Shown here piece after piece: positions 1 through 40,170 of a stretch of 40,454 bases of DNA. Source of the stretch: a virus. The translations under genes were made by a program, and so were the position numbers. The stretch is taken from positions 1-40,454 of IMG/VR virus record IMGVR_UViG_3300045118_000261; one strand, given 5' to 3'. The notes under the pieces are model-generated. The model ran no database searches. It worked only from the letters and a program-made list of their open reading frames with translations, and was not told where the DNA came from. How positions within the stretch are numbered: the first letter of the stretch is position 1; each line of letters opens with the position of its first letter.

Positions 1-94
1 CTAGTGTGTCCTCATGTTTCCACTTACCAATTTCCCATTTAGAGAGATTGCCGTTGTCACTTTGCAGACTCGAACGTAAGAATTTGTATTTCAT
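1..94 (-). CDS. DUF7666-like protein, N-terminal fragment at window edge
   Basis: This is the first 31 codons of a leftward gene that runs off the left edge. The ATG at 94-92 overlaps the upstream stop as ATGA and follows a good ribosome-binding site (GGAGG). All 94 bases are identical to the start of the gene at 36736-37425, so this is a paralogue of that protein. Its C-terminus is probably the partial gene at the right edge (40167-40454), which would make the molecule circular with a gap at the window ends. The function of the family is unknown to me. Confidence 0.8.
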   Translation of the reverse strand, partial: MKYKFLRSSLQSDNGNLSKWEIGKWKHEDTL

Positions 95-429
95 AGTTCC
101 TCCGTTATTTTTATATATTGAATGATTTTACTTCCCTTGATCTTGATTCCCTTCTCTTGTAGTTTCCTCAACATCCCCATGTCTACTACTTCCTTCTGCG
201 TGGTTGCCCCAAGCTCTTTGGCGGTAGATAATTCTACGCCGGAAAAACTTGTAGCAATGACGCGCTTCACAAAATACCCGTTTTTTGTTTTTATCCCGTC
301 CATTTTCATTTTTTTGAGCCTATCAAATAATTCATCTCTTAGTACCTCAAGACTTGCCTGAGTCTCTTCTATTGCTCCTTTTGCTTTGTTATAACTTTCT
401 ACAAGTTCCTCAAGTGTTGGTTTTTCCAT
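91..429 (-). CDS. Hypothetical coiled-coil protein
   Basis: This 112-residue protein begins with a charged heptad-like helix (about residues 5-42) and ends in a mixed lysine/isoleucine-rich segment. It lies directly downstream of the likely annealing protein, overlaps its 3' end by 20 bases, and ends in an ATGA overlap with the next gene. The position suggests an accessory role in recombination or replication, but that rests on context only. I do not recognise the family. Confidence 0.75.
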   Translation of the reverse strand: MEKPTLEELVESYNKAKGAIEETQASLEVLRDELFDRLKKMKMDGIKTKNGYFVKRVIATSFSGVELSTAKELGATTQKEVVDMGMLRKLQEKGIKIKGSKIIQYIKITEEL

Positions 430-970
430 GATCCTCCTTTATTGCGTTTGCGATAAGTTCCTTCGCCTCCTTTTGCGTTTTCGGTACAGCGTCAATCTTC
501 ATGCCCCTCAAAACAGCCACCTGTTGCGCTGTGGGTTCTTTAGAATCGTTCTCCGATACCGGTAATGCTTTTTCTCCTCCCGTGTCCATTTCTTCTATGC
601 TTGCATAAGCGCAAGCGGTAGCCATGCGCAACACCCTACACTCTGCTCGTGTAACCGCAAGATGAAGCAGGTGCTTGAGCATCATGGGATTAGATACATT
701 TGCGGTGCTTGCTTCTCCATAATTTGAATATTCTATGCCGGACAGTGTTTTGAACATGGCTTTTGCTAGTACATAATCTTTTTGTCTATCTACGACCTCT
801 GTAGTGATCCCGAACGCCCCGCCACCGTATAGGTGCATTGCTTTCCATTCTAGCGCCGCTTTAGTTGCGTAGGGCTTCCCTTGATACGTTATGATGAGAT
901 CACGAGGTATTTTTTTGTCCATCTCGTGTGCGTCCTTAACTATCAATTTAGAAGTTGTACCTTGATCCAT
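410..970 (-). CDS. Possible single-strand annealing protein (Rad52/DdrA-like pattern)
   Basis: A 186-residue protein. Residues 50-130 carry a pattern I associate with phage annealing proteins: an enzyme-like strand-rich segment, then SNYGEAS, then a helix with TRAECRVLRMAT and an acidic turn (SIEEM). Such proteins coat single-stranded DNA and pair complementary strands for homologous recombination. The C-terminal 55 residues look flexible and low in conservation signals. A RecB/Cas4-type exonuclease lies in the same leftward operon across the probable circular junction, which would be the usual partner. The assignment is by pattern only and could be wrong; another ssDNA-binding or replication role is possible. 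Confidence 0.5.
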   Translation of the reverse strand: MDQGTTSKLIVKDAHEMDKKIPRDLIITYQGKPYATKAALEWKAMHLYGGGAFGITTEVVDRQKDYVLAKAMFKTLSGIEYSNYGEASTANVSNPMMLKHLLHLAVTRAECRVLRMATACAYASIEEMDTGGEKALPVSENDSKEPTAQQVAVLRGMKIDAVPKTQKEAKELIANAIKEDHGKTNT

Positions 971-1106
971 ATTTTTCCTTTCTGCTTTTCAGCAATGTTT
1001 TTATCGCTTTGTTTGCTTCTTTTTTGGTACACCATCCCCTAATTTTTGCATTAACAATAAAGTGAAGCTGAGAGTCAAAAGCTGTCAGTGGGATTAAATT
1101 TTTCAT
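948..1106 (-). CDS. Small basic hypothetical protein
   Basis: A 52-residue ORF reading MKNLIPLTAF at the start and ending KYGSRYNF. It overlaps the annealing-like gene by 23 bases in another frame, and a GGAT ribosome-binding site precedes its ATG. It fills the space between two genes of the same operon and contains a lysine-rich helix. No family is recognised. Confidence 0.5.
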   Translation of the reverse strand: MKNLIPLTAFDSQLHFIVNAKIRGWCTKKEANKAIKTLLKSRKEKYGSRYNF

Positions 1107-1107
1107 G

Positions 1108-1266
1108 TTATCCTATAATTCTATCTTTTATTGTTCTTATATATTCGTCTAGCTTATCTTCTAATAAATCCTCTATGTCTTGTGTTGTTTCGTCTAATTT
1201 TTTTTCTTCTACTATTAAAATAGATTCATCCTGAAAATCTTTTAATAAATCTCTTAGGTTTGTCAT
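1108..1266 (-). CDS. Small acidic hypothetical protein
   Basis: A 52-residue protein starting MTNLRDLL. I chose this start because a GAGG ribosome-binding site sits just upstream and the ATG overlaps the stop of the preceding small gene as ATGA. A longer reading frame exists upstream but would overlap that gene completely. The protein is rich in Asp/Glu (about 19 of 52) and probably helical. Together with its neighbour at 1263-1379 it is among the first products of the strong promoter at 1401-1434. Confidence 0.6.
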   Translation of the reverse strand: MTNLRDLLKDFQDESILIVEEKKLDETTQDIEDLLEDKLDEYIRTIKDRIIG

Positions 1267-1379
1267 ATTTCCTCGCTTTCTGCATACGTGTCGTATGCCA
1301 AATCCCAATAATAGCTATCATATTCTTCCTGATCCTGTATGCTCAGACTATCATATTCTTCTTTTGTATATTTATTCAT
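1263..1379 (-). CDS. Very acidic 38-residue early protein
   Basis: This short ORF is the first gene behind the strong promoter at 1401-1434. It has a ribosome-binding site (AAAGGA) about nine bases before the ATG and ends in an ATGA overlap with the next gene. The protein is dominated by Glu, Asp and Tyr, has EEYDS twice, and contains only one basic residue, a Lys. Such composition is seen in DNA-mimic or inhibitor proteins made early by phages, but here that is only a suggestion from composition and position. Confidence 0.6.
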   Translation of the reverse strand: MNKYTKEEYDSLSIQDQEEYDSYYWDLAYDTYAESEEI

Positions 1380-1400: not shown

Positions 1401-1434
1401 ATTCTATCATATTGCACAATATGTGTCAAGAGGG
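1401..1434 (-). promoter_or_regulatory. Strong sigma70-type promoter with palindromic operator (copy 1)
   Basis: On the minus strand TTGACA (1429-1424), a 17-base spacer and TAGAAT (1406-1401) form a near-consensus promoter. The spacer contains the palindrome CATATTGTGCAATATG (1423-1408). All 34 bases are repeated exactly at 39246-39279. The palindrome is well placed for a repressor that blocks RNA polymerase. It drives the leftward early operon beginning at 1379. Confidence 0.85.
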
Positions 1435-1465: not shown

Positions 1466-2950
1466 TCATAACTCGACCATCTCTGGTACTCCGTTTTCAT
1501 CCAGACGTGTCGCAAATTCCTCCTGATGTGTCGCAACGTGTAGCGTTTCTAAGGCTGGTGCGACACTTGCGACACTTGCGACACTTGCTACAGATACGGA
1601 ACTTATACCAAAATATGATACTAAATCTTCTAATCTTTCCGGTTTTTCGCTAACAAATACCGTACTTGTGTTCTCGTGACCATATCTTTTTATATCAAAA
1701 TGTAGTATCTGTCTTATAATATTTGCTACCCTCTTTTCTGTTATAGGCTTTCTTCCTCTGTCTGTGTTTATTTTTTCTGTTATTTGCTTGATTGTTGGAT
1801 CAGTTGGCAAAAAATCATATATGCACTGAAACACCTCTCCCTCAAGGCTATCAAGCCTTTCTCTTTTTGTTTCAGCTTCCTGTATTGTCGCAAACTCGAA
1901 TATCTTTGCCCTGGATGCGTCATCAGATAAATAATATATAGGTGTAAGTACCTGCTGCACTCGTCTATCGAATGCAGAAAGCTCTGGAAATCCAAACTCT
2001 ATCTCTCCTAGGTCTATTTTATGTAGGTTTCTTAATCTCCATAATAATAACTTGTTTCTGAGAGAGAGAGATTTGTCATAAAATGATTTTTGCTTAATTA
2101 AAGGTATTCTTCTTGTACTCTTTTCCATTTCTATTACGAACATACGAGATCGTAATCCCGCGTTGGTTATGGGGCGCTCTGAGGTAAATATCTTCATTGA
2201 CTTAATGAGATATGCCTGTACCTCTCTCTTTGTGTCGCCTTCTGTACGTAAAACAGCCCTATTCCCTACTCCACTTTTAAGGAAAGATATCATCTCCTTA
2301 TAGTTATCTCCTTCGGGCTCAAATTCATCTAAAAACAGCGTCCCTCGCCATGAGCTAGCCATTCTAAATATAGGCGACATGGTTATGGAACCTGCCGCAT
2401 CTATTGGCTTGTAACATATACTTGTTACAGCCTCAGCAGCAGTAGTTTTACCTGTGCCAGTAAGACCAACGAAATGTAGGTAGGGGACAAAAGGAAATGG
2501 CTCATACACCCATGAAAACAACACTATATATGGTAAAAATCTTTGATAAAATGACGGAACCTCAAAATTATCATATAAAAAGTCATATATCTCTTGTACT
2601 AATTGCTCTGTCGTCCCATATTCCTCGATACCCGAAGGCAAAACGATAACACCAGACCGGAGGAGATTATCTTTTATAGGTCTATACTCCTTATCTTGGT
2701 ATATAAATGAGTCTAAGTAGTCAATTGAGGCTGTTTGTTTATCGTATATAATATAATTGGTATCTGTAGCATCATTCGCATGTGTTGCACGTGTCGCAGA
2801 TTGATTTCCTATAGGACATATCTGCTCTAAGATAGACTTTTCTGTTTCTAGGTATGAAGTATATATCACATTTTTATCGTTTTCCTTCATTTCTTTGTTT
2901 ACCTTACGGAGTATAGATTTTTCTTCTCTGGTTAATTCTTTAGAAGCCAT
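1466..2950 (-). CDS. P-loop ATPase / putative replication helicase
   Basis: A 494-residue protein with a Walker A motif GLTGTGKTT (residues 162-170), a Walker B-like strand TLFLDEFE (204-211) and an arginine-finger-like LRSRMF (266-271). The spacing fits an AAA+ or superfamily 3-like phage replication ATPase. Residues about 385-450 look like a winged helix. Near the C-terminus a nine-base tandem repeat encodes SVASVASVASV. The start has a good ribosome-binding site (AAAGGA). It is preceded by a small gene at 2932-3111 that overlaps it, and lies next to the control region. Its exact role, helicase or primase-helicase, cannot be settled by eye. Confidence 0.75.
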   Translation of the reverse strand: MASKELTREEKSILRKVNKEMKENDKNVIYTSYLETEKSILEQICPIGNQSATRATHANDATDTNYIIYDKQTASIDYLDSFIYQDKEYRPIKDNLLRSGVIVLPSGIEEYGTTEQLVQEIYDFLYDNFEVPSFYQRFLPYIVLFSWVYEPFPFVPYLHFVGLTGTGKTTAAEAVTSICYKPIDAAGSITMSPIFRMASSWRGTLFLDEFEPEGDNYKEMISFLKSGVGNRAVLRTEGDTKREVQAYLIKSMKIFTSERPITNAGLRSRMFVIEMEKSTRRIPLIKQKSFYDKSLSLRNKLLLWRLRNLHKIDLGEIEFGFPELSAFDRRVQQVLTPIYYLSDDASRAKIFEFATIQEAETKRERLDSLEGEVFQCIYDFLPTDPTIKQITEKINTDRGRKPITEKRVANIIRQILHFDIKRYGHENTSTVFVSEKPERLEDLVSYFGISSVSVASVASVASVAPALETLHVATHQEEFATRLDENGVPEMVEL

Positions 2951-3111
2951 AAAATCCTTTCTGCTATACCAATAAATAGCCGGTTATATGTACTTGATTC
3001 ATTTTCATAATAAGTTTTCATGTTTTTTGAAAAAATAGACAAATATGCGTATTCATCTGCGGTTTCTCCATATCTATCTAAAAGATTTGACAATATAGTT
3101 ATTTCATTCAT
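2932..3111 (-). CDS. Small hypothetical protein upstream of the ATPase
   Basis: A 59-residue ORF beginning MNEITILSNLLDRYGE. It overlaps the ATPase gene start by 19 bases, and the ribosome-binding site of the ATPase lies inside it, so the two are probably co-translated. It is mostly helical and has mixed charge. Its own start lacks a clear ribosome-binding site and follows directly after a GC-rich hairpin with a short T-run, so it may be controlled by attenuation in that leader. Confidence 0.65.
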   Translation of the reverse strand: MNEITILSNLLDRYGETADEYAYLSIFSKNMKTYYENESSTYNRLFIGIAERILWLLKN

Positions 3112-3228
3112 ATATCAAAAGCCCCCCGCGCTCTCAGATGAGATTGACCGTCTGGTTAGGGATGGTGGCGCGGGGGACTACCGATGTGCACAAAAAATCT
3201 CGTCTTTTTTACCATTTCCCTAACCTAA
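3111..3228 (-). promoter_or_regulatory. Structured leader RNA / possible attenuator or pseudoknot
   Basis: Between the leftward promoter and the first leftward gene lies a leader of about 118 bases. In the RNA, region 1 (3225-3211, GGTTAGGGAAATGGT) pairs with region 3 (3166-3154, ACCATCCCTAACC). Region 2 (3178-3167, GTCCCCCGCGCC) pairs with region 4 (3131-3121, GCGCGGGGGGC). The two helices cross, so they can form a pseudoknot. The second helix is followed by TTTTG, like a terminator. This GC-rich block stands out in AT-rich surroundings. Confidence 0.55.
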
Positions 3229-3235
3229 TATCAAC

Positions 3236-3262
3236 ACTATACCCTATTTTTGAATCTGTCAA
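3236..3262 (-). promoter_or_regulatory. Leftward promoter for the leader and replication genes
   Basis: The minus strand has TTGACA (3262-3257) followed after 15 bases by TATAGT (3241-3236). Shifting the -10 by two bases to TAGTGT gives a 17-base spacer. Its -35 is only seven bases from the -35 of the rightward promoter, so the two are back to back and could compete or share a regulator. Confidence 0.55.
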
Positions 3263-3269: not shown

Positions 3270-3298
3270 TTGTACAATATGAATAAATGGTATATAAT
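3270..3298 (+). promoter_or_regulatory. Rightward promoter with overlapping operator-like site
   Basis: TTGTAC (3270-3275), 17 bases, then TATAAT (3293-3298). The predicted start of transcription is at or within a base or two of the ATG at 3306, so the message is probably leaderless. The stretch TTGTACAATATG (3270-3281) matches 11 of 12 bases of the palindromic operator in the two strong leftward promoters, and it covers the -35. This would allow the HTH product to regulate itself. Confidence 0.65.
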
Positions 3299-3305
3299 GT
3301 ACACT

Positions 3306-3515
3306 ATGAAAGAAGAAACAATCAGAAAAATGACAGAAGCAGAAAATAGAAGAAAGTTAATAATTTCCCTTGCCAAGAGCATGAGCAATAATGCACTTGC
3401 GAAACACTTTGGAGTTTCGGTTCAGAGAATTCAACAGATTAAGCAACGCGAAAAACTTGGATATTATCTGCATAATAAAAAATATGTTAAAAAATCCAAA
3501 AAGCAAAGGAAATAG
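3306..3515 (+). CDS. Small helix-turn-helix regulator (possible repressor)
   Basis: A 69-residue basic protein with a helix-turn-helix around residues 27-47 (SNNALAKHFGVSVQRIQQIK) and a lysine-rich tail. I chose the ATG at 3306 because the promoter -10 ends only seven bases before it; a longer reading frame upstream would run through the promoter and the GC-rich leader. It is transcribed away from the replication genes, the usual place of a phage repressor or Cro-like protein. That it binds the CATATTGTGCAATATG palindromes is an inference. Confidence 0.7.
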   Translation: MKEETIRKMTEAENRRKLIISLAKSMSNNALAKHFGVSVQRIQQIKQREKLGYYLHNKKYVKKSKKQRK

Positions 3516-3912
3516 ACACGAAAGACACGTTGCAGAGCTTCTCAGAGGATATGGATTTGATGCCAAGAGAACTCCAATGAGCGGAGCAATTGATTGGATG
3601 AAGGGAGATATAACATCCCGTGACTTCCCTTTTTTTATTGAAGCAAAGAATACTGAAAAAACAAAGTTTTTAGAATGGTATAAAAAAGCAGAAGATCAAT
3701 CAGGAGCAATGCCACCGATTATAGTGTGGACATCAAACAATGAAAACATATACTGTTTTTTATTATTTACGGACATGTTGAGCCTTATGACTGGAGGAGC
3801 CATGATAAAAGAAAAAATAAAAAAGCCAGAAAAGCCAAAAAAATTATCTCTTGAGGAAACGACGAGATTGAAATTTAGTAAAATTAAACAAGTACGAAGA
3901 AAATTTAAGTAG
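3484..3912 (+). CDS. PD-(D/E)XK nuclease, Holliday-junction-resolvase-like
   Basis: A 142-residue protein. The likely active site is E13 (in RHERHVAELL), D42 (KGDIT) and E53-x-K55 (FIEAK), the order expected for archaeal-type resolvases and related phage nucleases that cut branched DNA. The C-terminus is basic. The start at 3484 overlaps the 3' end of the HTH gene by 32 bases, and there is no clear ribosome-binding site, so translation may depend on the upstream gene. A role in resolving recombination or packaging intermediates is inferred from the fold signature. Confidence 0.65.
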   Translation: MLKNPKSKGNRHERHVAELLRGYGFDAKRTPMSGAIDWMKGDITSRDFPFFIEAKNTEKTKFLEWYKKAEDQSGAMPPIIVWTSNNENIYCFLLFTDMLSLMTGGAMIKEKIKKPEKPKKLSLEETTRLKFSKIKQVRRKFK

Positions 3913-22488: not shown

Positions 22489-23757
22489 TTATTTCGTCCT
22501 TCTAAGCATACGACCATTTGCTGCCGGACATCGGCAAGCAAGATTTGTGTACCAAGAGAATACTTTCTGAAAGGTGATATAATCACTCCTTCTGAGAAGA
22601 TTATCCTGTACGAATCCCATGTCGGCGACCTGACAGACAGTCCAAGTGTCAAGATTTACGAGAATTGCTTCCCCATCCGGACAATCAAAGTCAAGATAGA
22701 CTCCTACCTCTCCCTTTCCTGCTTCATATGCAAGTCCGCTCCATCCGGAAACAAGTTCCGTCTTGTTTACTGTTCTTCGCAGAGCAGTCATAAGTTCTCC
22801 ATATTTTGCATAAAGAGACTTATTGACGAACCACGCATATCGGTCACCTTCTTGCGCATACTCAACCGCTGCCATATAGATTGTGTCCATATCAGCAACC
22901 GTAAGCGCTGCATTTGCTGCTGTCCCCATATACTGAGGAGCCCAAATATCATTACCCGTTGAGATACCTGCGTATGTCGTTGCTGTTCCGACTGAAAGAG
23001 CTGCACGGATACCCTGAATATCAGAAGTTCCCGCCGCTGTTTCATCTCCGTCTACGATATATAACGCATCAGCGTTATTTATCGCAGGAGCACCAGTCAC
23101 TACGAGAGTTCCTTGTGCTGTTCCACCTGTTACAGTAGTAACTGTTCCAACATCCGCTGCCGCAGTTCCAACACCGATTGCCATTCCAGGAGCGATATAT
23201 TTCGTTGGCTTTATATCATAATTGATAGGGCCATACCATCCTGAAATATCGCCTCGCGTATCATCTAGATTTGAGTCCGGATATACAACGGCAATTGTTC
23301 CAGCTCCAACTGATCCAGATGTAGGGACTTGACCTACGACTCCGACTCCATCAGAAAAATACTGACGGTTCAGATTCTTTGAGAAATCTGATGTCAATGT
23401 TCTCATCTGAAAATCCATTGCACTCTCAACTGCTCCTTTATTTCCTTCAGATGCTTTCATAACAACATCAGAAAGATCAAATGTTGCAGTAACATACTTC
23501 GGGGAAACAGTTCCTTGAGTTGTCGGTGCATAACCAGTCCGAAGTTTTGCCGTTGGACTCGACAAGTTTACAACCCCACCATGCCTATTGCTTCTCACGG
23601 CAAAATAAAAGTTGTTATTAAAAAATTCCACACTATCGTTCTTTTTAAGAACTTTAAGCAATTTCGTCTGTGATGGCACGTTATCTTGTATGTACGGTTG
23701 GATAACCTGCTTGAATGCAGCTGTATAATTGCCTATGTCAAATGCTGTAGTAGCCAT
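22489..23757 (-). CDS. Major capsid protein
   Basis: A 422-residue protein. It begins with a helical part (TAAFKQVIQPYIQDNVPSQT) and then SVEFFNNNFYFAVRSNRHGG, typical of HK97-fold coat proteins of the larger N4- or P22-like type. A long Ala/Gly/Thr-rich insertion is at about residues 190-260. The end (LLRRSDYITFQKVFSWYTNL) fits a capsid P-domain. The gene has the strongest ribosome-binding site here (AAAGGAGG), as expected for the most abundant virion protein, and lies next to the scaffold-like and portal genes. Confidence 0.75.
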   Translation of the reverse strand: MATTAFDIGNYTAAFKQVIQPYIQDNVPSQTKLLKVLKKNDSVEFFNNNFYFAVRSNRHGGVVNLSSPTAKLRTGYAPTTQGTVSPKYVTATFDLSDVVMKASEGNKGAVESAMDFQMRTLTSDFSKNLNRQYFSDGVGVVGQVPTSGSVGAGTIAVVYPDSNLDDTRGDISGWYGPINYDIKPTKYIAPGMAIGVGTAAADVGTVTTVTGGTAQGTLVVTGAPAINNADALYIVDGDETAAGTSDIQGIRAALSVGTATTYAGISTGNDIWAPQYMGTAANAALTVADMDTIYMAAVEYAQEGDRYAWFVNKSLYAKYGELMTALRRTVNKTELVSGWSGLAYEAGKGEVGVYLDFDCPDGEAILVNLDTWTVCQVADMGFVQDNLLRRSDYITFQKVFSWYTNLACRCPAANGRMLRRTK

Positions 23758-24595: not shown

Positions 24596-24663
24596 TTCTA
24601 ATTCGCTTTTTGTGACAGACATTTTATCTGTTGCCTAAATAATATTCTTATCAAATGAAAATG

Positions 24664-26829
24664 TCAACTTTTTCCTATATTTTTTCTAAATTTTGATATA
24701 GGAAAACTACTCATATCAGGTTTTATTGAATCAACATGTTTGGATATTTGATCTGAACCTGCAGGAGAAACACTTTTAGGCTCTGGTAATCCAAGTTGAA
24801 CTATAACCGCCTTTTTAGTATCTTCAGGCAAATCTTTAAATGAAATATTAAGCGACTCTGCAAGAGACTTTTGCGGTTTATCAATCATTCCAGCTTCCTT
24901 CATGCTCTCGAGAACTCCTACTTTTGTTGAGTCTACAAGCCTTTGTTCCATTTCCGATCCCACAGCTCCTGCATCGCGTAAAGCTTCTATAATAGCAACT
25001 TTCATCTTTATAATATCCTCATCGCTTTGTTGATTCATAGTTGCAGCATTATCAAGAACTTCCATAAACTCCTGTGTATTTCCATATCCAAATACTTCCA
25101 TGAATCTTTTTGTGACTTGTTTAATAGCTTCCATAGGTATTGCACTTATGGGCGGAGATGCAAGTTTTATCATAAATTCAATAATTTGCTGCATCGCCTG
25201 TTTCTTTCCGTCCATAGTAAGTCCAAGCCCAGGTTCTATTTCAATTCTCACTTTTAAATCTTTTTTAAGAGGAACTACGTCTTTCGGCAATGGTTTATTT
25301 ACCTGCATAGACATATTCATTCCTTTTTCTCCAATAACATCAAAATATTCGGGTTGAGCATCTTCTATAAATGATATCTCATGAGGTTCCATATAATCTT
25401 TGCTTGCTCGCTCAAGCATAAGCTCTGTTATCCGTTTCATTGTTTTTTTAAGCATAAGCGTTGAGACTTTAAGGTTTGCATATTCTGTTGATTTAATAGA
25501 CTCTATAGCAACGCCGCTTTTTACCCCTTGAGGAACATTCATACCGCCTGCTGTAGTAGCACCTTGTTCATCAATGTACTTATCAAGCATCTCAATAACA
25601 TTAAAGGGAGTATTGCCTACTGACCCATTCTGCATTTGTGTTAAAGGAGTTGTTTCATATTCTACAACTTGCCCGCCGGGAAAATTAGAGAGTTGAAAAT
25701 TCTCTCCTTTCCGTTTTTGATAAACTCCAACCACCATTGCATTAACCCATTTTTCTAATCGTGTTACTATCACATCTATTGATTTATTTTGCGGTATAAA
25801 CCGTTCAATAAATGGGGTCTGGTAAAGAACACCTGGCTCAAAACGAAAATCTGCAAATGGATAGTCATCATAATCAATATATTCATCCCTAAGTGTGACT
25901 GCTCCTGCCGAAAAAATATGTCGCATAACACCATCCCCTTTGCTTTTTCCATCCATAACGCCACCAGTATCGCCTTTCATAACCTGCTTCCAGTTTTCAT
26001 CAGTCAGAACTTCCTTTAAAAATGTCTCTTTTACAAGGATGCTTCCGTCTTTTTGGTCTGAAGGAACTTTACTTCCAAAACGCACGCGCATATACGCATC
26101 TTTAATTTCGCTTGTCGCATATTTATTATCAGGAGTAAGTTTTTTTACCTTATCAGGATCAAAAAGAGGATTTTTCATTACATCTACCAAATCCATAGGA
26201 CATATTTTTGATATAAATGGTTCTTCTTTTAACTCTCGTCTGTCTCCGTATGTGACAATATCAAAAGCATCATAAACATTTGTGCGTATTTTTTCCTTAT
26301 CCGTATCGGAGTACACCTGAAGATAAGCGACTGAATTCTTTGCTGCATTGATGATCATATCTATAAGTTTTAGTGATAATTCTTGTTCTACCCATTCATT
26401 TGATATCCAGTTCCCTTGCAATTTTGCTGTTTTTTTTGAAACATCCATTGCCTCTTGATATTTAACTTGGTCCAATTGACGTGTTTCAGGATTTATAAAT
26501 TGTTCTTGTGTAATTCTTTGAGGATATACAACAGGATAAGGTTCTGCTGCAAAAAGAAGATTTGTCACTCCTCGTATTTGTCTTGAGGCTCTCGGTATAG
26601 CACGTTCTATATATCCATTTGAATAATTTACATGATCAATAACTCTGCCAGTTCTTTTAGAAACAACCCGAAAGTGATATCCATCATCAAAAAAGTTATT
26701 GTCAAACCATCGACGTTCATGCTGTTTTCTCATGCGGATAGCAGTGCTTACCATTTCTTCTACCGCTTGCCCTATGTGTTCTGAGTTTGTCTGAGAAAAT
26801 TTTTCTTTTAAATCATCGAATAAACCCAT
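24664..26829 (-). CDS. Portal protein
   Basis: A 721-residue protein forming the ring through which DNA enters the head. Evidence: its size, its helical C-terminal half, a wing-like central part (DEYIDYDDYPFADFRFEPGV) and a FIERFIPQNKSIDVIVTRLE stretch typical of podovirus-type portals, plus its position between terminase and scaffold. The C-terminus after residue 600 is charged and helical, like a barrel. No ribosome-binding site stands out before the ATG. The length fits the large P22-like portals better than the small lambda type. Confidence 0.75.
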   Translation of the reverse strand: MGLFDDLKEKFSQTNSEHIGQAVEEMVSTAIRMRKQHERRWFDNNFFDDGYHFRVVSKRTGRVIDHVNYSNGYIERAIPRASRQIRGVTNLLFAAEPYPVVYPQRITQEQFINPETRQLDQVKYQEAMDVSKKTAKLQGNWISNEWVEQELSLKLIDMIINAAKNSVAYLQVYSDTDKEKIRTNVYDAFDIVTYGDRRELKEEPFISKICPMDLVDVMKNPLFDPDKVKKLTPDNKYATSEIKDAYMRVRFGSKVPSDQKDGSILVKETFLKEVLTDENWKQVMKGDTGGVMDGKSKGDGVMRHIFSAGAVTLRDEYIDYDDYPFADFRFEPGVLYQTPFIERFIPQNKSIDVIVTRLEKWVNAMVVGVYQKRKGENFQLSNFPGGQVVEYETTPLTQMQNGSVGNTPFNVIEMLDKYIDEQGATTAGGMNVPQGVKSGVAIESIKSTEYANLKVSTLMLKKTMKRITELMLERASKDYMEPHEISFIEDAQPEYFDVIGEKGMNMSMQVNKPLPKDVVPLKKDLKVRIEIEPGLGLTMDGKKQAMQQIIEFMIKLASPPISAIPMEAIKQVTKRFMEVFGYGNTQEFMEVLDNAATMNQQSDEDIIKMKVAIIEALRDAGAVGSEMEQRLVDSTKVGVLESMKEAGMIDKPQKSLAESLNISFKDLPEDTKKAVIVQLGLPEPKSVSPAGSDQISKHVDSIKPDMSSFPISKFRKNIGKS

Positions 26830-26887: not shown

Positions 26888-27142
26888 TTACATTCTTTTT
26901 AATGCCTTATCAAACGTCTCATCATCTGATTCGCTTAAATCAATCTCCTCATTTTCTTTTTTTGAATCTTGAATACTTTTAGGAATATTTGTTGCGGCTA
27001 TATATTCATTTATGTTTCTACTCATGACTGCTTTTATGGCATCATTAAGCTTATTCGTCATATCTTTTTGATATACATATCGCTCGATAGATTGAAAAAT
27101 ACATAAAATACCTAGGATTGATAATCCTACTATGTCGTTCAT
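26888..27142 (-). CDS. Small membrane-anchored hypothetical protein
   Basis: An 84-residue protein with one hydrophobic segment at the N-terminus (VGLSILGILCIFQSIERY), then a charged helical part and an acidic region (NEEIDLSESDDE). It overlaps the next gene upstream as ATGA and precedes the portal gene. It has no recognisable family. The space to the portal gene (26830-26887) has small CCGG inverted repeats only. Confidence 0.55.
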   Translation of the reverse strand: MNDIVGLSILGILCIFQSIERYVYQKDMTNKLNDAIKAVMSRNINEYIAATNIPKSIQDSKKENEEIDLSESDDETFDKALKRM

Positions 27143-27456
27143 GGAAATACCTCTAAAAATCTTTTATATGGATTAGGTAACATAAAATATTCATTTTTAT
27201 AGAAAATTTGTTGAGTATTTACTATACAAATATCTTCTGAAAATATATATACATATATTGGAACTTCATTAAATGGATTTTTAAATATTTCATACTCCTT
27301 TGTTTTTTCAAGCGGTTCACCAGTGAATGCTTTTAATATAGACGTTGATCCGCTTATCCATTCATTGTTTCTAATTCCAACCGTTACTCTTTCTCCTTTA
27401 AGATCTACATTATCTAAAACACTTTGAGCAGTATCATACACAAGAAACATTCCCAT
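27139..27456 (-). CDS. Hypothetical protein after tRNA-Asn
   Basis: A conventional start (ATG at 27456) gives 105 residues beginning MGMFLVYDTAQ. The reading frame stays open upstream through the whole tRNA gene to 27672, and the 25 codons just before this ATG read like protein (LLQALYWTWDAFERSS), so the true start may be a rare codon or lie close to the tRNA. The protein is strand-rich and shows no known motif. It lies between the terminase/tRNA and portal genes, so a head-related role is possible. Confidence 0.5.
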   Translation of the reverse strand: MGMFLVYDTAQSVLDNVDLKGERVTVGIRNNEWISGSTSILKAFTGEPLEKTKEYEIFKNPFNEVPIYVYIFSEDICIVNTQQIFYKNEYFMLPNPYKRFLEVFP

Positions 27457-27527
27457 GCTTGACCGCTCAAAGGCATCCCACGTCCAGTAAAGAGCCTGAA
27501 GAAGTTTATCGTGAGAAAACGATATTG

Positions 27528-27599
27528 CTCCAGCAGAAGGAATCGAACCTCCAACCTCATTCTTAACAGGAATTTGCTCAACCGTTAAGCTATGCTGGA
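27528..27599 (-). tRNA. tRNA-Asn (GUU)
   Basis: The minus strand folds as a cloverleaf of 72 bases. The acceptor stem is a perfect 7 bases (TCCAGCA with TGCTGGA) with discriminator G73. The D arm is GCTT-AACGGTT-GAGC. The anticodon loop CTGTTAA has T33 and anticodon GTT, with a stem of four pairs plus an A-G mismatch at the top. The variable loop is AGGTT, and the T arm is GGAGG-TTCGATT-CCTTC. CCA is not encoded. It lies two bases after the large terminase stop. Confidence 0.88.
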
Positions 27600-27601
27600 T
27601 T

Positions 27602-28915
27602 TTAGACTTCTTCGTATTCTGTAAATTCAATGTTTTCTTCTTTTGTATCTTGGAGTATTTTTGTTTTCTCATATAAGTCTCTTTGTACGATGGTCATCGT
27701 CTTTTCTTTCGATGATTGTATTATAGGAGATAATCCCCAAATTGCAAGGGAGTGACTAAAACATATATCGTCTTTGAACCCTGGAGGAGCACCATATATG
27801 ACTCTGCCGGTCTTTTCTGAATAATCATAAGTGAATGAGTTGAACTCTTGTATTGTTTCTTCAAGATTAAGCATTTTTATATTTTTAAGCTCTATCCAAC
27901 TACTTAATTTTTCAATCAGTTGTTTTTTCATTTCATTTGTAAAATGGATAGGCTCACATGCCACACCGGACCGAACCAAATCCTCGTATATCGGCTCTCC
28001 AAGCCCAGTTGAATCTATATAGACAAGCGCATGGTTAAATTTTACTGCCAAGTCTTTGATTTTTGATTTTTGGAATGGCCATTCAAGTTTGTTAAATCTC
28101 ATTTGGTATACCTGATGATTATTTTTTCTGTCATATACCGTAAGAACAGTATAATCCTGTACTTTTGCCAGATCGCATCCAATAACATATAAATGATTTT
28201 CCTTTGGTTCTTCTGGTTGCAATACACAAATTTCTCTTACTCCTCTAAATACTACACCAGTATCATCAAGAAATTCTGCGTATATTTCCTGTTTTACTAC
28301 ACGCTCTGGCATATCTTTCATATCTTGCATAATAATTTCATGCGGTATATAGGGATTATCAAAAGAAGTAAACCTGAAAGATCGATAATTTACCTGATCT
28401 TTATCAAGTCCACGATTATAAAGTTGTTCAAATAATCCTTTCCCTTTTGGTGTTCCGCCAATAACACCATGAGTATGGTCTGTCCATAACATTGGCTTAA
28501 TTGCATTATTGTATAGATATTCATTTTTTAGAATAATTCCAGCCTCATTGAGAAACCACTCATCATATTCAAATCCTTCTATGTTTTCAGGATTATCGGC
28601 ACTCCTAAAGTCTATATAGGAGTTTTTAATTTGAAGAATTTTCTGCTGTTTTCTCCAGTTAAATATATTTTGAGGTAGTTTTGTAAGTGCAGGAAGAAAA
28701 TACCGCTCAACATATCGCTCTATGTTTGCGTTTACCGTGTCCACCCATAAACCGCGCTTAAACTCATTTTTTAGCGCTTTTTTAATAAAATTATTTGCAG
28801 CACCACGAGTAAGTCCAAACCGTCGTCCTTTTGGTACGATAATAAACCGAGTAGGACAAGTGAAAATAGAATCCTGACTAGAAAAATTCTTAATTGGAAG
28901 CTGAATAACAGACAT
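27602..28915 (-). CDS. terL: Terminase large subunit
   Basis: A 437-residue packaging motor with an ATPase and a nuclease. The ATP-binding region is VPKGRRFGLTR (27-37): the usual lysine of GRRxGKTR is Leu35, while K29 stands before the loop, as in some other terminases. Walker B and the catalytic carboxylate are YDEWFLNEAG (117-126). GGTPKGKG (153-160) is the coupling motif. The RNase H-like nuclease has D248 (GCDLAK), D301 (YIDSTGLGEP) and D382/D383 (KDDI). A DUF5681-like gene, possibly the small subunit, lies separated by sugar genes. Confidence 0.9.
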   Translation of the reverse strand: MSVIQLPIKNFSSQDSIFTCPTRFIIVPKGRRFGLTRGAANNFIKKALKNEFKRGLWVDTVNANIERYVERYFLPALTKLPQNIFNWRKQQKILQIKNSYIDFRSADNPENIEGFEYDEWFLNEAGIILKNEYLYNNAIKPMLWTDHTHGVIGGTPKGKGLFEQLYNRGLDKDQVNYRSFRFTSFDNPYIPHEIIMQDMKDMPERVVKQEIYAEFLDDTGVVFRGVREICVLQPEEPKENHLYVIGCDLAKVQDYTVLTVYDRKNNHQVYQMRFNKLEWPFQKSKIKDLAVKFNHALVYIDSTGLGEPIYEDLVRSGVACEPIHFTNEMKKQLIEKLSSWIELKNIKMLNLEETIQEFNSFTYDYSEKTGRVIYGAPPGFKDDICFSHSLAIWGLSPIIQSSKEKTMTIVQRDLYEKTKILQDTKEENIEFTEYEEV

Positions 28916-35520: not shown

Positions 35521-36053
35521 TTTTCTCTTTTCTCCCTCCTGTGGGGAGGGTTATGGTTAATCAACTTTTTTTTAGTAATCAACTTTAATTTTTTATCAAT
35601 TCCGATAATAGCCAAAGACGAATATGTACTCTCGTCTTCTTCAAGCCATAAAGGTTTGTATTCTTCTATAGTAAAATTTCCGCCTTTATATCCAACAAAC
35701 TGTAAGCCAAGTAAAGATTCTAAAACTTTTGCAAGTTTGTTTGCATTTTGTGACAAACTATCTGCTTTGACTACATTTTCTTTTTCCCATTTTTTATATT
35801 TATCTTGAAAATTATCTCCTCCGTAATCATTAAATTCTTCTTTTTCCGCATGGTATCCAGATGATTTAGTGTATAAAGCAATCTCAATATATGAACCACG
35901 CCACGAACCTATCCCTTTTATTCTTTTATCAAATAAAGCGTTAGGCGGTGCTTCTTTTAATGCTTTAATCAAATTACCATAGGTCAAATGATAACTACTT
36001 CTATCTCTTGCCGTATTTTCATTTATTACATTTACTAAATGTTGCATGTTCAT
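35517..36053 (-). CDS. Hypothetical protein
   Basis: A 178-residue protein starting MNMQHLVNVI. It has mixed alpha/beta pattern with segments such as GIGSWRGSYIEIALY (46-60) and LESLLGLQFVGYKGGNFTIE. The last residues (NPPHRREKREK) are encoded by a 22-base hairpin element that is repeated before the gene. It may be a small phage-specific regulator or accessory protein; no family is recognised. GGAGG of the hairpin lies before its ATG. Confidence 0.65.
   Translation of the reverse strand: MNMQHLVNVINENTARDRSSYHLTYGNLIKALKEAPPNALFDKRIKGIGSWRGSYIEIALYTKSSGYHAEKEEFNDYGGDNFQDKYKKWEKENVVKADSLSQNANKLAKVLESLLGLQFVGYKGGNFTIEEYKPLWLEEDESTYSSLAIIGIDKKLKLITKKKLINHNPPHRREKREK
35534..35555. repeat. 22-base hairpin repeat, copy 1 (other copy 36067-36088)
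   Basis: CCCTCCTGTGGGGAGGG, with TTATG after it, occurs exactly at 35534-35555 and 36067-36088. On the minus strand it reads CCCTCC-CCAC-AGGAGGG, a hairpin whose one arm is a perfect ribosome-binding site (AGGAGG). A degenerate relative is at 36578-36598. It could hide or show the site for the next gene. Confidence 0.65.
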
Positions 36054-36066: not shown

Positions 36067-36088
36067 CCCTCCTGTGGGGAGGGTTATG
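36067..36088. repeat. 22-base hairpin repeat, copy 2
   Basis: This is the second exact copy of the element at 35534-35555. On the minus strand it lies 14 bases before the ATG at 36053, so its AGGAGG arm could serve the 178-residue gene. Confidence 0.65.
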
Positions 36089-36595: not shown

Positions 36596-36739
36596 TCATT
36601 TTCTTTCGTTATACTCCTTCAAAAACTGCTGATAATCACGAGCAACTATTTCTCGCGTCCACTGACGCACGATCCCTTCCGGTATGCTTCCAACATAATC
36701 CAGCATAAGCCAGTCAACTATTGCTTCGAGTTTTGTCAT
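36596..36739 (-). CDS. Small hypothetical protein
   Basis: A 47-residue ORF starting MTKLEAIVDWLMLDYVG and ending LKEYNERK. Its ATG overlaps the stop of the alanine-rich gene as ATGA. It looks helical with a central IPEGIVRQWTREIV segment. No family is recognised. It stands where the other paralogue of the alanine-rich gene is followed by a different small gene (40006-40170). Confidence 0.6.
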   Translation of the reverse strand: MTKLEAIVDWLMLDYVGSIPEGIVRQWTREIVARDYQQFLKEYNERK

Positions 36740-37425
36740 ACCTCATCCAATGTTTTTATTCTTTTGAGCATCCAGGTACGGATTTTAGAGGTGATTCTTG
36801 TGTTTACTCTCGCCACTAAACTCGCCTTCCATTCCGCCGTCTCCGCCGCATTCCATTCCGCCGCCCATGCCAACACCGCCGCCTCCGCCGCCAACGCCTC
36901 CGCCGCCTCCACCGCCTTCGCCGCCGCCCATGCCGCCGCCGCCGCCTTCGCCGCCGCCCATGCCGCCGCCTTCGCCGCCTCCCATTCCGCATTCCATTCT
37001 GCCACCGCCTTCGCCGCCGCTTTCACATTCTTTTCTGTCGGGTGTTTGGTCCACGCTTTTGCCGCTTCTATTGCTTTTCTCGGACGGTCGTCGTTGGGGT
37101 ATTGTTTTTCGTAGATATCTATAACCAGTTCTGCGGCGTAGATTGCTAAAGCAACGCTGTCCTTTTTCTGCCAATGATAGGCTTTCACGATCCGCATGTC
37201 TGACCAACACTCTTTGTTATCCTGTATGATAGACTTGCCTTTTGTTTCCACGATGGCAAGGATTTCGCCCTGGACGTAACTAAATGCCTGGTCGGGGTAC
37301 CTCGAACAGTGAAAACCGAAATGGCACATATCTAGTGTGTCCTCATGTTTCCACTTACCAATTTCCCATTTAGAGAGATTGCCGTTGTCACTTTGCAGAC
37401 TCGAACGTAAGAATTTGTATTTCAT
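36736..37425 (-). CDS. DUF7666-like protein with alanine-rich repeat tail
   Basis: A 229-residue protein starting MKYKFLRSSL; the ATG overlaps the upstream stop as ATGA and marks the exact end of a 94-base repeat shared with 1-94. Residues 1-75 (with MCHFGFHCSRYPDQAF and YVQGEILAIVE) resemble the DUF7666 type. Residues about 100-205 are an alanine repeat with Trp, Lys and Glu at intervals (AKAAAWAAAKAAAAAWAAAK). The tail SKIRTWMLKRIKTL is shared with the edge protein. DNA here is strikingly GC-rich. The function is unknown. Confidence 0.75.
   Translation of the reverse strand: MKYKFLRSSLQSDNGNLSKWEIGKWKHEDTLDMCHFGFHCSRYPDQAFSYVQGEILAIVETKGKSIIQDNKECWSDMRIVKAYHWQKKDSVALAIYAAELVIDIYEKQYPNDDRPRKAIEAAKAWTKHPTEKNVKAAAKAVAEWNAEWEAAKAAAWAAAKAAAAAWAAAKAVEAAEALAAEAAVLAWAAEWNAAETAEWKASLVARVNTRITSKIRTWMLKRIKTLDEV
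37332..37425. repeat. 94-base direct repeat (identical to 1-94)
   Basis: The first 94 bases of the alanine-rich gene are identical to positions 1-94 of the window, ending exactly at the ATG. This is strong evidence for a second, recently duplicated or converted gene copy that the assembly could not cross. Confidence 0.95.
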
Positions 37426-37871
37426 CTTTTCTTCCTTTCTCCAAGGGTAGAAATCCACATTGCAATCTCCTTGTTTGTCACCATTCTGTTTGAATCAGTA
37501 ATCCTGTCTTCGTTAAGCCATTGACGGAGCATGCCTATATCCTGTTTGAGCTGTGCAATCATTTCCTCCCGTTGGTGGGTGAGAAGGGAACGAATAAAAT
37601 CTTTAAGATCATTTTCAAAGACAGATAAATGCTTCTCTTTTCCGTCAACGGTAAAAAACTTGTCAATAATTTTGAATAACCGTTTCTCCCAATCTTCCCG
37701 TTTCCCGTTACAAATATCACAATAATTTGGATAATACAGATGGTCGCAGAAACCACTTGGGTTCCGTATCGACACATCACGTTTACAATGTTTACAAAGT
37801 TTTTTTCCATGACTTGTCCCCTCGTCTGCGGTAACGGTTTTCATTGATGATTGGCAACAGATACTTTTCAT
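37422..37871 (-). CDS. Zinc-finger-like hypothetical protein
   Basis: A 149-residue protein with several Cys/His: CC (5-6), CKHC (26-29) and CDHLYYPNYCDIC (42-54), followed by a long charged helical part (about 60-120). Such proteins are common in phage accessory regions and may bind nucleic acid. It is joined by ATGA overlaps on both sides. Confidence 0.6.
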   Translation of the reverse strand: MKSICCQSSMKTVTADEGTSHGKKLCKHCKRDVSIRNPSGFCDHLYYPNYCDICNGKREDWEKRLFKIIDKFFTVDGKEKHLSVFENDLKDFIRSLLTHQREEMIAQLKQDIGMLRQWLNEDRITDSNRMVTNKEIAMWISTLGERKKR

Positions 37872-38239
37872 AGTTCTCCTTCCTGTACTCTATACATATT
37901 TTCTGAATCCCATCTATACCCGACTTCACGGATAGTAACAAGGCGATTTCTAAATTTTTCATCTATATCTCCTATGTTCTCTCGCAGATTATGAATTGTT
38001 GACCATAGCCTTTCTTTATCTTCCCTAACATCATCGTACCTTCTTCCGGTTCCGTACAGTGTATCCATAAGTGCTTCATATTCTACGACCAAATCTTCGT
38101 CCTGCAATAGTTTCTCAAAGACAATTTTTTCATTCGTTGGAAGTACGCCAACGATCCTTCGACCATCACGTATTTCTCCAGTCTTTCCGTTAAATGTTGT
38201 CCATACATCCAATTCATATTGCGGTTCCCGTTCATTCAT
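37868..38239 (-). CDS. Hypothetical protein
   Basis: A 123-residue acidic protein. It starts with a strand-rich part (YELDVWTTFNGKTGEIRDG, 8-26), then helical charged segments with repeated ExL patterns. It overlaps the zinc-finger-like gene as ATGA. No family is recognised and no enzymatic motif is visible. Confidence 0.6.
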   Translation of the reverse strand: MNEREPQYELDVWTTFNGKTGEIRDGRRIVGVLPTNEKIVFEKLLQDEDLVVEYEALMDTLYGTGRRYDDVREDKERLWSTIHNLRENIGDIDEKFRNRLVTIREVGYRWDSENMYRVQEGEL

Positions 38240-38241: not shown

Positions 38242-38316
38242 CTATTTTCTATAAAAAATTAACAATAATGCTATGCAAAGAGCGTAAATAATATAGTATA
38301 AAGCTAAGTCTTTCAT
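38242..38316 (-). CDS. Small membrane peptide
   Basis: A 24-residue ORF, MKDLALYYIIYALCIALLLI then FYRK, forming one membrane helix with a basic end. Its ATG overlaps the upstream HTH-like gene's stop as ATGA. Such tiny membrane peptides are common in phages; the function is unknown. Confidence 0.45.
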   Translation of the reverse strand: MKDLALYYIIYALCIALLLIFYRK

Positions 38317-38465
38317 ATATATTTCCCGCTATCTCTTTTTACTCGTGCTTTGCCAAGAAGGTTCCGTATCCATGAAACGCTTTTTCCAAATGCCATTGCC
38401 ATTTCTTTTCTTGTCATTTCCCCGTCGTATCTTAGGACAAATTTTTCTTGTTTTGTAAGTTTCAT
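38313..38465 (-). CDS. Small HTH-like DNA-binding protein
   Basis: A 50-residue protein starting MKLTKQEKFVLRYDGEMTRK. The pattern (EMTRKEMAMAFGKSVSWIRN, 16-35) fits a helix-turn-helix of the kind found in small phage regulators, followed by a basic tail. It overlaps the next gene as ATGA. Confidence 0.6.
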   Translation of the reverse strand: MKLTKQEKFVLRYDGEMTRKEMAMAFGKSVSWIRNLLGKARVKRDSGKYI

Positions 38466-38466: not shown

Positions 38467-38634
38467 CTATCTCCACGCTTTTCCTTTTGTTTTTTTTATT
38501 CCGAGTATAGTAAATGCTTTTTTTATTTTTACCTTGCCTATATTAAGAAGCATAGATATAGACGAGTATGTCTCTCCTTTTTGTTCAAGTATTCTTATTT
38601 TTTCTAAAAGTGTTGAATCAAGATTTTTTCTCAT
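38467..38634 (-). CDS. Small basic HTH-like protein
   Basis: A 55-residue protein starting MRKNLDSTLLEKIRILEQKG. The segment GETYSSISMLLNIGKVKIKK (20-39) resembles a helix-turn-helix with a lysine-rich second helix. It precedes another HTH-like gene by one base, so the two may form a small regulatory pair. The region to 38735 contains only a 21-codon ORF of doubtful value. Confidence 0.55.
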   Translation of the reverse strand: MRKNLDSTLLEKIRILEQKGETYSSISMLLNIGKVKIKKAFTILGIKKTKGKAWR

Positions 38635-38735
38635 AATTAACATCTAAAGATTGCCGGTTGTCCAAGATACTTGAACATCGTCCATATAGCCCAAGTTGCT
38701 TTCGCCCATTATATATGTCTTATGACCGGCACTCT

Positions 38736-39236
38736 TTATTTGTTAATTACTCTTCTGCAAACCCACGGATTCCAACCTTGTTTAGCGTAAATTTTCTCTG
38801 CTACACGAACATTCTCTTTCCAATCATGCATAAACTGTTCACCGTATTTTTTGATGTGTACTGAGTTTATCTGAAATACAGAGTAGTCACCTGTCCCGTT
38901 TTTATTGAAATTATATGCTTTTATATTCATCCGACTTTCACAGTTTGCTATATCTATAGCTTGCTTCACTACATTTTTTCCGTGTTTTTCAAATGTCTGT
39001 ACTATATATGCATAAACTTCCTCTATCTCACTTGGTGTACGAACTTTTTTCTTAGATGCCTCTACTGACCATTGTATTGAGCTGTAGGACTCAGGAACTG
39101 GAGAAATAATAGTGGGTTGCGTTTTTTGAAGAATATACATTCCTATTGCAACTACAATGCCTAGTTTTAGTATGCCATGAATGGTGGAGTAGTTAATACC
39201 CCATGAATTTTGATACCTGTTGTGTGTCATTCTCAT
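38736..39236 (-). CDS. Membrane-anchored lytic transglycosylase-like protein
   Basis: A 166-residue protein with a membrane helix (LKLGIVVAIGMYIL, 23-36), a linker, and a lysozyme-like domain with a catalytic Glu in DIANCESRMNIKA (95-107) and NGTGDYSVFQINSVH (113-127), the hallmark of SLT-type transglycosylases. It would cut the cell wall from the membrane side, perhaps during entry or release. A strong promoter with a palindromic operator lies just upstream, and the -10 is only about nine bases from the ATG, so the message may be leaderless. Confidence 0.75.
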   Translation of the reverse strand: MRMTHNRYQNSWGINYSTIHGILKLGIVVAIGMYILQKTQPTIISPVPESYSSIQWSVEASKKKVRTPSEIEEVYAYIVQTFEKHGKNVVKQAIDIANCESRMNIKAYNFNKNGTGDYSVFQINSVHIKKYGEQFMHDWKENVRVAEKIYAKQGWNPWVCRRVINK

Positions 39237-39245: not shown

Positions 39246-39279
39246 ATTCTATCATATTGCACAATATGTGTCAAGAGGG
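39246..39279 (-). promoter_or_regulatory. Strong promoter with palindromic operator (copy 2)
   Basis: An exact 34-base copy of the promoter at 1401-1434: TTGACA (39274-39269), a 17-base spacer with CATATTGTGCAATATG, and TAGAAT (39251-39246). It drives the transglycosylase and probably the downstream accessory genes. Confidence 0.85.
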
Positions 39280-39432
39280 GAGATTTTCCAGATGTTTGCA
39301 TTTTCTTGTAAATATAAATTTTGGACATGAGCATAAAATTTTCCCCTTATATATTCTTACGATATATTTTTTATTTGGAACAGTTTTTGATGGCACTTCC
39401 CATTTTTTATACAAAATAGCAATTTTGTCCAT
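39271..39432 (-). CDS. SWIM zinc-finger-like protein
   Basis: A 53-residue protein starting MDKIAILYKKWEV. The end has CSCPKFIFTRKCKHL (35-49), the CxC...CxH pattern of SWIM domains that bind zinc and often DNA or proteins. An upstream TTG in the same frame could add ten residues. It overlaps the exonuclease gene by 26 bases, and its 3' end reaches into the -35 side of the strong promoter. Confidence 0.65.
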   Translation of the reverse strand: MDKIAILYKKWEVPSKTVPNKKYIVRIYKGKILCSCPKFIFTRKCKHLENLPS

Positions 39433-39991
39433 AGATGCATGATCCGTCACAATGACCGTCAACGAGGTCGCTTTTGAAGTCTCCTTTTTCTATAATCGAT
39501 ATGCCTTTTTCAATAAAGTCTTTTGCTTTTTGAATATCGGCATCAGTTATTTCTTTATAAAATACCTTGAAATTGGTCAGCTCTGCCGTGCTTGTTACCA
39601 TAAATACCTTTCTAAAGTTTGTAGCAAGACCATAAAATGGTATTTGAATAAGGTCATCAAACCGTTGCTGGGACCAGGGTTTTGTGCTTGTTTTGTACTC
39701 CATTATGGCTTTTGACTTGAAATTGACTGCATCGCAAAATCCGTAAAGGCTATAATTATCTCTGTAGTCGGTGAAGCACTTATACTCTGGATTTGTAAAC
39801 TCAAGATCAATGGTTACGCGGGAGTCTTTTTTTATTCCGCATACATGGTCGGTGACGATCTTGTGAGCTATTTTTCCGGCTTCCATGTATTCGTTGACGG
39901 GCTGTTCTATACCCATCGCTTTACAAAGATACGTGTGAGGGTGCTTGATAAGTGCGTCAAGCGTAGAGTAGGACAGGAAAAGGTTTTTCAT
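39407..39991 (-). CDS. Cas4/RecB-type exonuclease
   Basis: A 194-residue PD-(D/E)XK nuclease. Conserved residues are H43 (GKIAHK), D87 (GFCDAV), E98-x-K100 (IMEYK) and Q116 with Y120 (QIPFYG). C23 near the start and C181, C185, C191 at the end could hold an iron-sulfur cluster as in Cas4/AddB nucleases. Such phage enzymes trim DNA ends for recombination by an annealing protein. A likely partner (410-970) is in the same leftward unit if the ends join. I chose the ATG at 39991 because MKNLFLSYSTLDAL is the usual start of the family. Confidence 0.8.
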   Translation of the reverse strand: MKNLFLSYSTLDALIKHPHTYLCKAMGIEQPVNEYMEAGKIAHKIVTDHVCGIKKDSRVTIDLEFTNPEYKCFTDYRDNYSLYGFCDAVNFKSKAIMEYKTSTKPWSQQRFDDLIQIPFYGLATNFRKVFMVTSTAELTNFKVFYKEITDADIQKAKDFIEKGISIIEKGDFKSDLVDGHCDGSCIYGQNCYFV

Positions 39992-40005
39992 ATAGGTATA
40001 GATTT

Positions 40006-40170
40006 TTATATTTTTAGCATTGACCGTACTTTTTTGCACCCGAAACATATCTGCGTGATCCCGTCGTGAAATGTAGAATATACTACTTGTTGCACATGAC
40101 GGCCTTCGCATTGTTGTATGTGGTGTCTCAATTCCTCAATGGTTTTATAGTATTCATAGGAAAACGTCAT
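40006..40170 (-). CDS. Small zinc-binding protein
   Basis: A 54-residue ORF starting MTFSYEYYKTIEELRHHIQQ. CEGRH (21-25) and CFGCK (43-47) probably bind one zinc ion. The end is basic. The ATG overlaps the stop of the alanine-rich gene as ATGA, with GGAGGT nearby. It resembles short phage proteins with a HDGITQICFGC-type stretch. Confidence 0.6.
   Translation of the reverse strand: MTFSYEYYKTIEELRHHIQQCEGRHVQQVVYSTFHDGITQICFGCKKVRSMLKI

Follow-up and report, generated by a model that had tools for sequence, protein, structure and literature searches.

A palindrome shared by two early promoters of an uncultured phage, and a different one at matching promoters of a relative, suggest operators with swapped specificity

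Introduction

Phage lambda carries three clustered operators. At MerR-type promoters, a palindrome lies between the −35 and −10 hexamers and the spacers are 19–20 bp long. Phages 434 and lambda are described as having homologous circuitry with different operator specificity (PMC6550527). A similar situation is reported for the repressor of the cluster A mycobacteriophages, where heteroimmune relatives have distinct consensus sites at early promoters (PMC6550527; PMC9283540). The phage Mu protein Mor reportedly recognises inverted repeats that lie within an element of 16 bp, the centre of which is at −43.5 (PMC4390567).

Here we analyse a stretch of viral DNA (“the window”; IMG/VR record G000, 40454 bases, 37% GC, almost all genes on the minus strand), which was compared with four other viral records (G001, G007, G008 and G009), five records in total including the window. 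The original prediction for this DNA was that one repressor shuts two early operons and its own gene in a lambda-like switch.

Results

Two promoters share a palindrome that fills the spacer

Positions 1401–1434 and 39246–39279 of the window are identical over exactly 34 bases, and the identity stops at both edges (flank identity over 50 bases, 0.42 and 0.26). The exact repeat that had been predicted is therefore present, and it exceeds what 60 dinucleotide shuffles produced, in which the longest exact repeat averaged 15.65 bases and never exceeded 18. Read on the minus strand, both copies are CCCTCTTGACA-CATATTGTGCAATATGA-TAGAAT, that is, a −35 hexamer, 17 bp and a −10 hexamer. We refer to these promoters as P1 (1401–1434, minus strand; TTGACA at 1429–1424, a 17-bp spacer and TAGAAT at 1406–1401) and P2 (39246–39279, minus strand; the same 34 bases). 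The hexamers of each match the consensus at 11 of 12 positions, a TG ahead of the −10 makes it an extended one, and no other site in either region looks more like a promoter. Because 17 bp is the optimum spacer and the hexamers are 11/12, P1 and P2 should fire unless blocked.

The palindrome CATATTGTGCAATATG fills the spacer and begins straight after the −35, so its expected place between −35 and −10 at both promoters holds. It occupies 1408–1423 in P1 and, in identical form, 39253–39268 in P2 (both minus strand), with its centre at −21.5 from the inferred start in each. Its arms are 7 bp long (P = 0.0026 for such an arm in random 23-mers). At one mismatch or less, TTGTGCAATATG has four sites in the window versus 0.33 expected, and none of 100 shuffles reached four; these are the two defining copies, one site at 3270 and an intragenic one at 30240. 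The 16-bp palindrome at up to three mismatches is not rare on its own (its count was reached in 4 of 100 shuffles), nor is the octamer TTGTRCAA enriched by number (three copies versus a shuffle mean of 2.89); what stands out is the placement of the octamer, all three copies in the window being at promoters. The exact operator set of the window is present in one genome only. By these sequence statistics, the repeat and palindrome of P1 and P2 are more than chance.

A recently copied promoter cassette in which the palindrome is incidental would fit a genome that has other duplications (DUF7666 paralogues and 22-bp hairpin repeats), but it is very improbable: both flanks are unrelated, a spacer-filling palindrome with 7-bp arms has a P of about 0.0026, and three promoters of G007 have an independent palindrome (see below). 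Since the 34-base identity ends at the promoter edges and the flanks are unrelated, the constrained unit is the promoter together with its operator.

The two operons lie in tandem across the contig break

An alanine-rich DUF7666 gene crosses the contig ends: it starts at 106, runs down to 1 and has its end at 40454–40167. A paralogue lies at 36736–37437, on which the match to the family (PF24703) was scored; positions 1–106 are 95% alike to 37332–37437, and 40166–40245 are 85% alike to 36735–36814. By this reading of the sequence, the contig is broken within a repeat gene and its ends adjoin save for a missing stretch, which makes it a near-closed circle interrupted at a tandem repeat. With the DUF7666 gene running across the ends, P1 and P2 point in the same direction, in tandem, separated by about 2.6 kb and the missing stretch, and a layout with the two operons far apart was rejected.

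The first genes behind P1 are small ORFs (91–1378, minus strand), two of which (410–970 and 91–429) have homologues in G001, and the end of the operon beyond the contig break holds an exonuclease-like PD-(D/E)XK gene (39407–40111, minus strand). Behind P2 comes a transglycosylase/lysozyme-like gene (38736–39236), followed by genes for three small proteins (all on the minus strand). The 58-aa protein (38467–38643) has an HTH look by sequence reading and no Pfam family match. The other two are rival candidate regulators: a 50-aa protein resembling sigma region 4 (38313–38465; PF08281, 20.2 bits, below the cut-off) and a 123-aa protein with a winged-helix Trans_reg_C match (37868–38239; 26.7 bits, cut-off 26.2). 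The Trans_reg_C match was not recovered in another search, and the model of the 123-aa protein (pLDDT 36) is too poor for use.

Elsewhere in the window, a 22-bp exact repeat (35534–35555 and 36067–36088) is a hairpin, CCCTCC-TGTG-GGGAGGG, and a second 22-bp repeat marks nearby paralogous small zinc-ribbon-like genes. A tRNA-Asn (27527–27599) overlaps the ORF at 27139–27672 immediately downstream of the terminase gene (TerL).

The region between the divergent HTH and helicase genes holds a third, partial site

The near copy that had been predicted at the HTH gene, TTGTACAATATG (O3; 3270–3281, plus strand), matches at 11 of 12 bases and overlaps the −35 of that gene. The HTH-gene promoter (3270–3298, plus strand) is TTGTAC, 17 bp and TATAAT; with an inferred start at about 3305 and the ATG at 3306, the message would be leaderless. 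The gene (3306–3515, plus strand) encodes a trihelical 69-aa HTH protein, a candidate regulator with a homologue in G001, and shares its operon with a gene for a Holliday-junction-resolvase-like PD-(D/E)XK nuclease (3484–3912, plus strand; PF24608, 45.7 bits; phrog_244, 3.4e-18). O3 consists of a half-site and the core only (four mismatches across the full 16 bp), and the TTG within it is partly required by the −35 itself. A possible weak fourth site, TATAATGTACACTATG (3293–3308, plus strand), with three mismatches to the operator, lies over the −10 and the start codon.

A promoter absent from the original prediction drives the divergent helicase operon (3234–3262, minus strand; TTGACA at 3262–3257, 17 bp, TAGTGT at 3239–3234), and the centre of O3 is at −46.5 relative to it. 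A small ORF (2932–3111, minus strand) lies between this promoter and the gene for a primase/helicase-like AAA ATPase (1466–2950, minus strand), which is 72% identical to that of G001. The leader of this operon contains a strong RNA hairpin at the same place in the window (3112–3186, minus strand; z = −5.1) and in G001 (L014 125–195; z = −2.7). Its C-rich/G-rich stems precede a run of Ts, and it is possibly an attenuator.

The 69-aa HTH protein is the leading candidate to bind the palindrome

Three features make the 69-aa HTH protein a candidate: O3 at its own promoter, the divergent position of its gene and the conservation of its operon in G001. That record (40458 bases) shares with the window the helicase (72% identity), the nuclease (46%), two P1-operon genes (about 40%) and the exonuclease (38%). 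It keeps the HTH-nuclease operon divergent from the primase/helicase, with the HTH gene at the same position (39% identical in the alignment; E 0.0014, phmmer). On this genomic evidence, we tentatively regard the protein as the leading single candidate, somewhat short of an even chance; the remaining weight falls on the small DNA-binding proteins encoded behind P2 and on unassigned genes.

The protein itself gives weak matches. HTH_28 scores 21.3 bits (cut-off 25), and the PHROG matches of the family, also weak, include late activators at 0.0083 for the window and 0.00032–0.00079 for G001. An AlphaFold2 model built from two sequences (pLDDT 76.9) has three helices (3–22, 28–35 and 39–67) with no obvious dimer domain. 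Foldseek with this model gave no match at E 0.001; in VIA-align, Mu C, sigma region 4 and response-regulator domains tied at Z 6–7.6, values that are not diagnostic. The nearest weak structural matches are activators and sigma region 4.

ATTGYRCAAT has no copies in G001, and no repeated operator was recognised there either. Loss of the palindrome in a relative that keeps the HTH gene had been named beforehand as evidence against the proposal. G001 fits that description in form; the recognition helix of its HTH protein differs from that of the window, and it may use another operator. The notion of one repressor for both early operons and its own gene thus divides into two parts: the shared operator-like sites stand, exact at P1 and P2 and partial (11/12) at the promoter of the putative repressor gene, whereas the assignment of the 69-aa protein as their binder is not supported.

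It is possible, although less probable than binding by the 69-aa protein, that the 50-, 58- or 123-aa protein is the repressor, in Cro-like feedback on the operon that encodes it, and that the 69-aa protein acts otherwise, for example in late activation or with the nuclease. All three genes lie just behind P2, two of their products have the matches given above (sigma region 4 for the 50-aa protein and Trans_reg_C for the 123-aa protein), and the weak late-activator matches of the 69-aa family would suit this division of roles. G001 has the HTH gene without the palindrome, and G007 has palindromes at its promoters without the HTH gene, so operator layout and HTH gene do not travel together, which also favours a repressor from the P2 operon. 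Against it, neither G007 nor G001 yielded a homologue of any of the three proteins, and O3 lies at the 69-aa gene and not at theirs.

With TerL at 57%, the partial record G008 and G009 stand further from the window, and G008 is without the early region. In G009, tandem promoters recur at 46 bp, and TTGTACAA lies at the start site of each (L050 3278–3366, equal to G009 22778–22866). These are the only two copies in the G009 record, and we set the pair aside as operator support since it looks like one 46-bp duplication. By sequence reading, G009 also encodes sugar nucleotidyltransferase, GHMP-kinase-like and SIS-type genes (L049 14329–16503 and L051), with GroEL-like ORFs at the end.

A relative with the same virion genes has another palindrome at matching promoters

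G007 (42092 bases, with a 121-base end repeat) has a TerL 81% identical to that of the window, and the two share a virion block, mostly at about 45–80% identity, and a transglycosylase (30%). The helicase and HTH protein of the window have no homologue detectable in G007, so a cognate repressor gene in each relative was not found, and the window palindrome has no copies there. G007 instead carries another palindrome, CTATCA-YR-TGATAG, in three early promoters (Pa, Pb and Pc). Besides the end repeat, the longest repeated intergenic word of G007 is a 16-mer found in Pb (17829) and Pc (20033), in opposite orientations and both within TTGACA promoters; the third promoter, Pa (17202), has the perfect palindrome CTATCATGTGATAG. 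Nowhere else in the G007 record does a listed site come as close to CTATCAYRTGATAG as in Pa, Pb and Pc (0, 1 and 2 mismatches, against 3 for the others). At up to two mismatches there are three sites versus shuffle means of 0.17 and 0.20 (G007 pieces L017 and L018), for a motif found after looking. All three palindromes are centred at −16.5, even at Pb, where the spacer is 18 bp instead of 17 bp.

The promoters correspond. Pa drives the homologue of the transglycosylase gene, the first behind P2 in the window. Pb drives a gene for an Erf-like annealing protein (phrog_2324, 1.5e-42), and the place of this operon is taken in the window by the exonuclease-containing operon after P1. The capsid-operon promoter is alike in the two phages (window 24600–24667, minus strand; L017 3272–3341, minus strand), with TTGACA followed by the conserved AACAG-n-TAAAATG-n-CTGT, and has an operator in neither. 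Differing operator sequences at matching promoters of close relatives are thus found for one genome pair, the window and G007. Repressors that differ in specificity would be expected to produce such a pattern, in which the promoters keep their positions and the operator changes. The comparison strengthens the idea of operators at the early operons and suggests that the two palindromes are putative repressor operators whose specificity has been swapped.

Similar promoters occur in unrelated genomes

The exact 16-mer occurs in 25 stretches of viral contigs, mostly intragenic or without promoter hexamers; in L036 and L044, TTGACA overlaps the start of the 16-mer. Scans for promoter plus palindrome returned 3, 12 and 26 stretches (the 12 viral, the 26 from genomes), of which 10 of the 12 and all 26 were inspected; L004 and L005, copies of L003, were inspected separately. 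L003–L005 belong to a single unrelated clade, in which the promoter of a structural gene carries the site. Among the genome stretches, 3 of 26 (L059, L070 and L077), from unrelated bacteria, have TTGACA-n-TATTGTGCAATA with a −10 at one mismatch or less and the site in non-coding DNA. In L077 (1792–1860, a Cloacimonadota contig), TTGACAATATTGTGCAATATAGTATATT lies next to a divergent gene whose sequence suggests an XRE-type regulator, and behind it comes a gene that reads as an ImmA-like protease; genes that read as XRE-type regulators are also near the sites in L044 and L059. As a lead only, this suggests that the same core can serve unrelated regulators.

Such promoters, some near XRE-type genes, would also be expected if a host regulator bound the palindrome and the early promoters of the phage answered to host physiology. 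We consider this improbable: G007 uses another palindrome at matching promoters, which a shared host regulator disallows unless the hosts differ, and a TerL profile scan of bacterial genomes (169 stretches) returned no relative. Named-phage matches to the window TerL are distant only (34% at best).

The helicase profile scan (600 stretches) gave no relatives, and Blast of the promoter against phages and plasmids had best E values of 3 and 0.7 with no convincing coverage. The HTH search of viral contigs gave L006–L008, rejected as chance matches in unrelated genes (L006 and L008 were inspected; L007 equals L006 in length and in the position of the match). The palindrome letters were not found in the literature searched, a limited search after which the site may still prove to be reported, and a literature search for heteroimmune early-promoter operators returned nothing.

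A CI-type lysogeny switch is not supported

The original prediction combined a lambda-like switch with the lack of a visible integrase. The second point is borne out: tyrosine (PF00589) and serine (PF00239) integrases are each found in none of the five records, not all of which are complete. HTH_3 (PF01381) is found in none of the five at E ≤ 0.001 (one candidate each in the window, G007 and G009 was scored and failed), and neither is the S24 peptidase (PF00717), which argues against a CI-type repressor. The divergence of the leaderless HTH gene from the replication operon, the operator-like site at its own promoter and the adjoining contig ends speak for a genuine lysogeny switch like that of lambda, in which the HTH protein would be the CI analogue of a plasmid-like prophage. 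We think it decidedly unlikely, because integrase, HTH_3 and S24 were found in none of the five records and the window proteins scanned gave no sign of a lysogen, a partition system or a maintenance gene. A CI-type switch is hence not supported; an early shut-off circuit explains the anatomy equally well.

Discussion

Sequence identity, promoter anatomy, operator placement and the differing palindrome at the matching G007 promoters are the observations from which we infer protein binding, repression, its timing and the identity of the binder. The palindromes of P1 and P2 are probably operators of a phage regulator that would act as follows. P1 and P2 would be strong promoters of the sigma-70 type, each at the head of one of two tandem early/middle operons in a tailed phage of roughly 40 kb. 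A phage-encoded DNA-binding protein with two-fold symmetry would occupy the palindrome and exclude RNA polymerase from both together, serving in early-gene shut-off or as an immunity repressor. Bound at O3, this protein would obstruct the −35 of the HTH gene, a form of autoregulation; as O3 is centred at −46.5 of the helicase promoter, it could also contact polymerase there.

A far more specific combination is unlikely as a whole: that an environmental phage lineage without integrase or CI runs an immunity/early shut-off circuit on a single in-register palindromic operator per early promoter, that this operator is swapped between relatives with the same virion (CATATTG-TG-CAATATG versus CTATCA-TG-TGATAG), and that the regulator is the 69-aa trihelical Mor/sigma4-like protein, made from a leaderless message, repressing its own gene and activating the helicase operon from one site.

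If binding is real, the window and G007 offer a small natural system for the acquisition of non-interacting control specificities with the virion nearly unchanged. The comparison also provides a cheap, sequence-only way to spot early regulons of uncultured phages, namely to look for a palindrome that several promoters have in common, always equally far from the −10, and that varies among relatives.

Among known systems, MerR-type promoters also have the palindrome between −35 and −10, but MerR-type activation was rejected on the spacer, 17 bp in P1 and P2 against 19–20 bp. Phage Mu C is the nearest fold of the modelled HTH protein by VIA-align (Z 7.6, 57 residues, 2.3 A), a Z below 8 that may mean a common fold only. 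The Mor element is reported to be centred at −43.5 (PMC4390567), compared with −46.5 for O3 at the helicase promoter; P1 and P2, however, have near-consensus hexamers with the site between them, which is not the position of this type of activator. The stoperators of cluster A phages are reportedly asymmetric (PMC9283540) and occur at many sites genome-wide, most of them away from promoters, whereas the window has palindromes, two perfect sites and one partial, all promoter-linked. Closest in logic are the CI and Cro proteins of lambdoid phages, where one protein governs several early promoters and its own, and operators differ among relatives; the window differs in having one in-spacer palindrome, a 69-aa trihelical HTH protein as the candidate and no HTH_3, S24 or integrase found. 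These comparisons suggest that the type of control is ordinary virus switch control and that the novelty lies in the operator swap between the window and G007.
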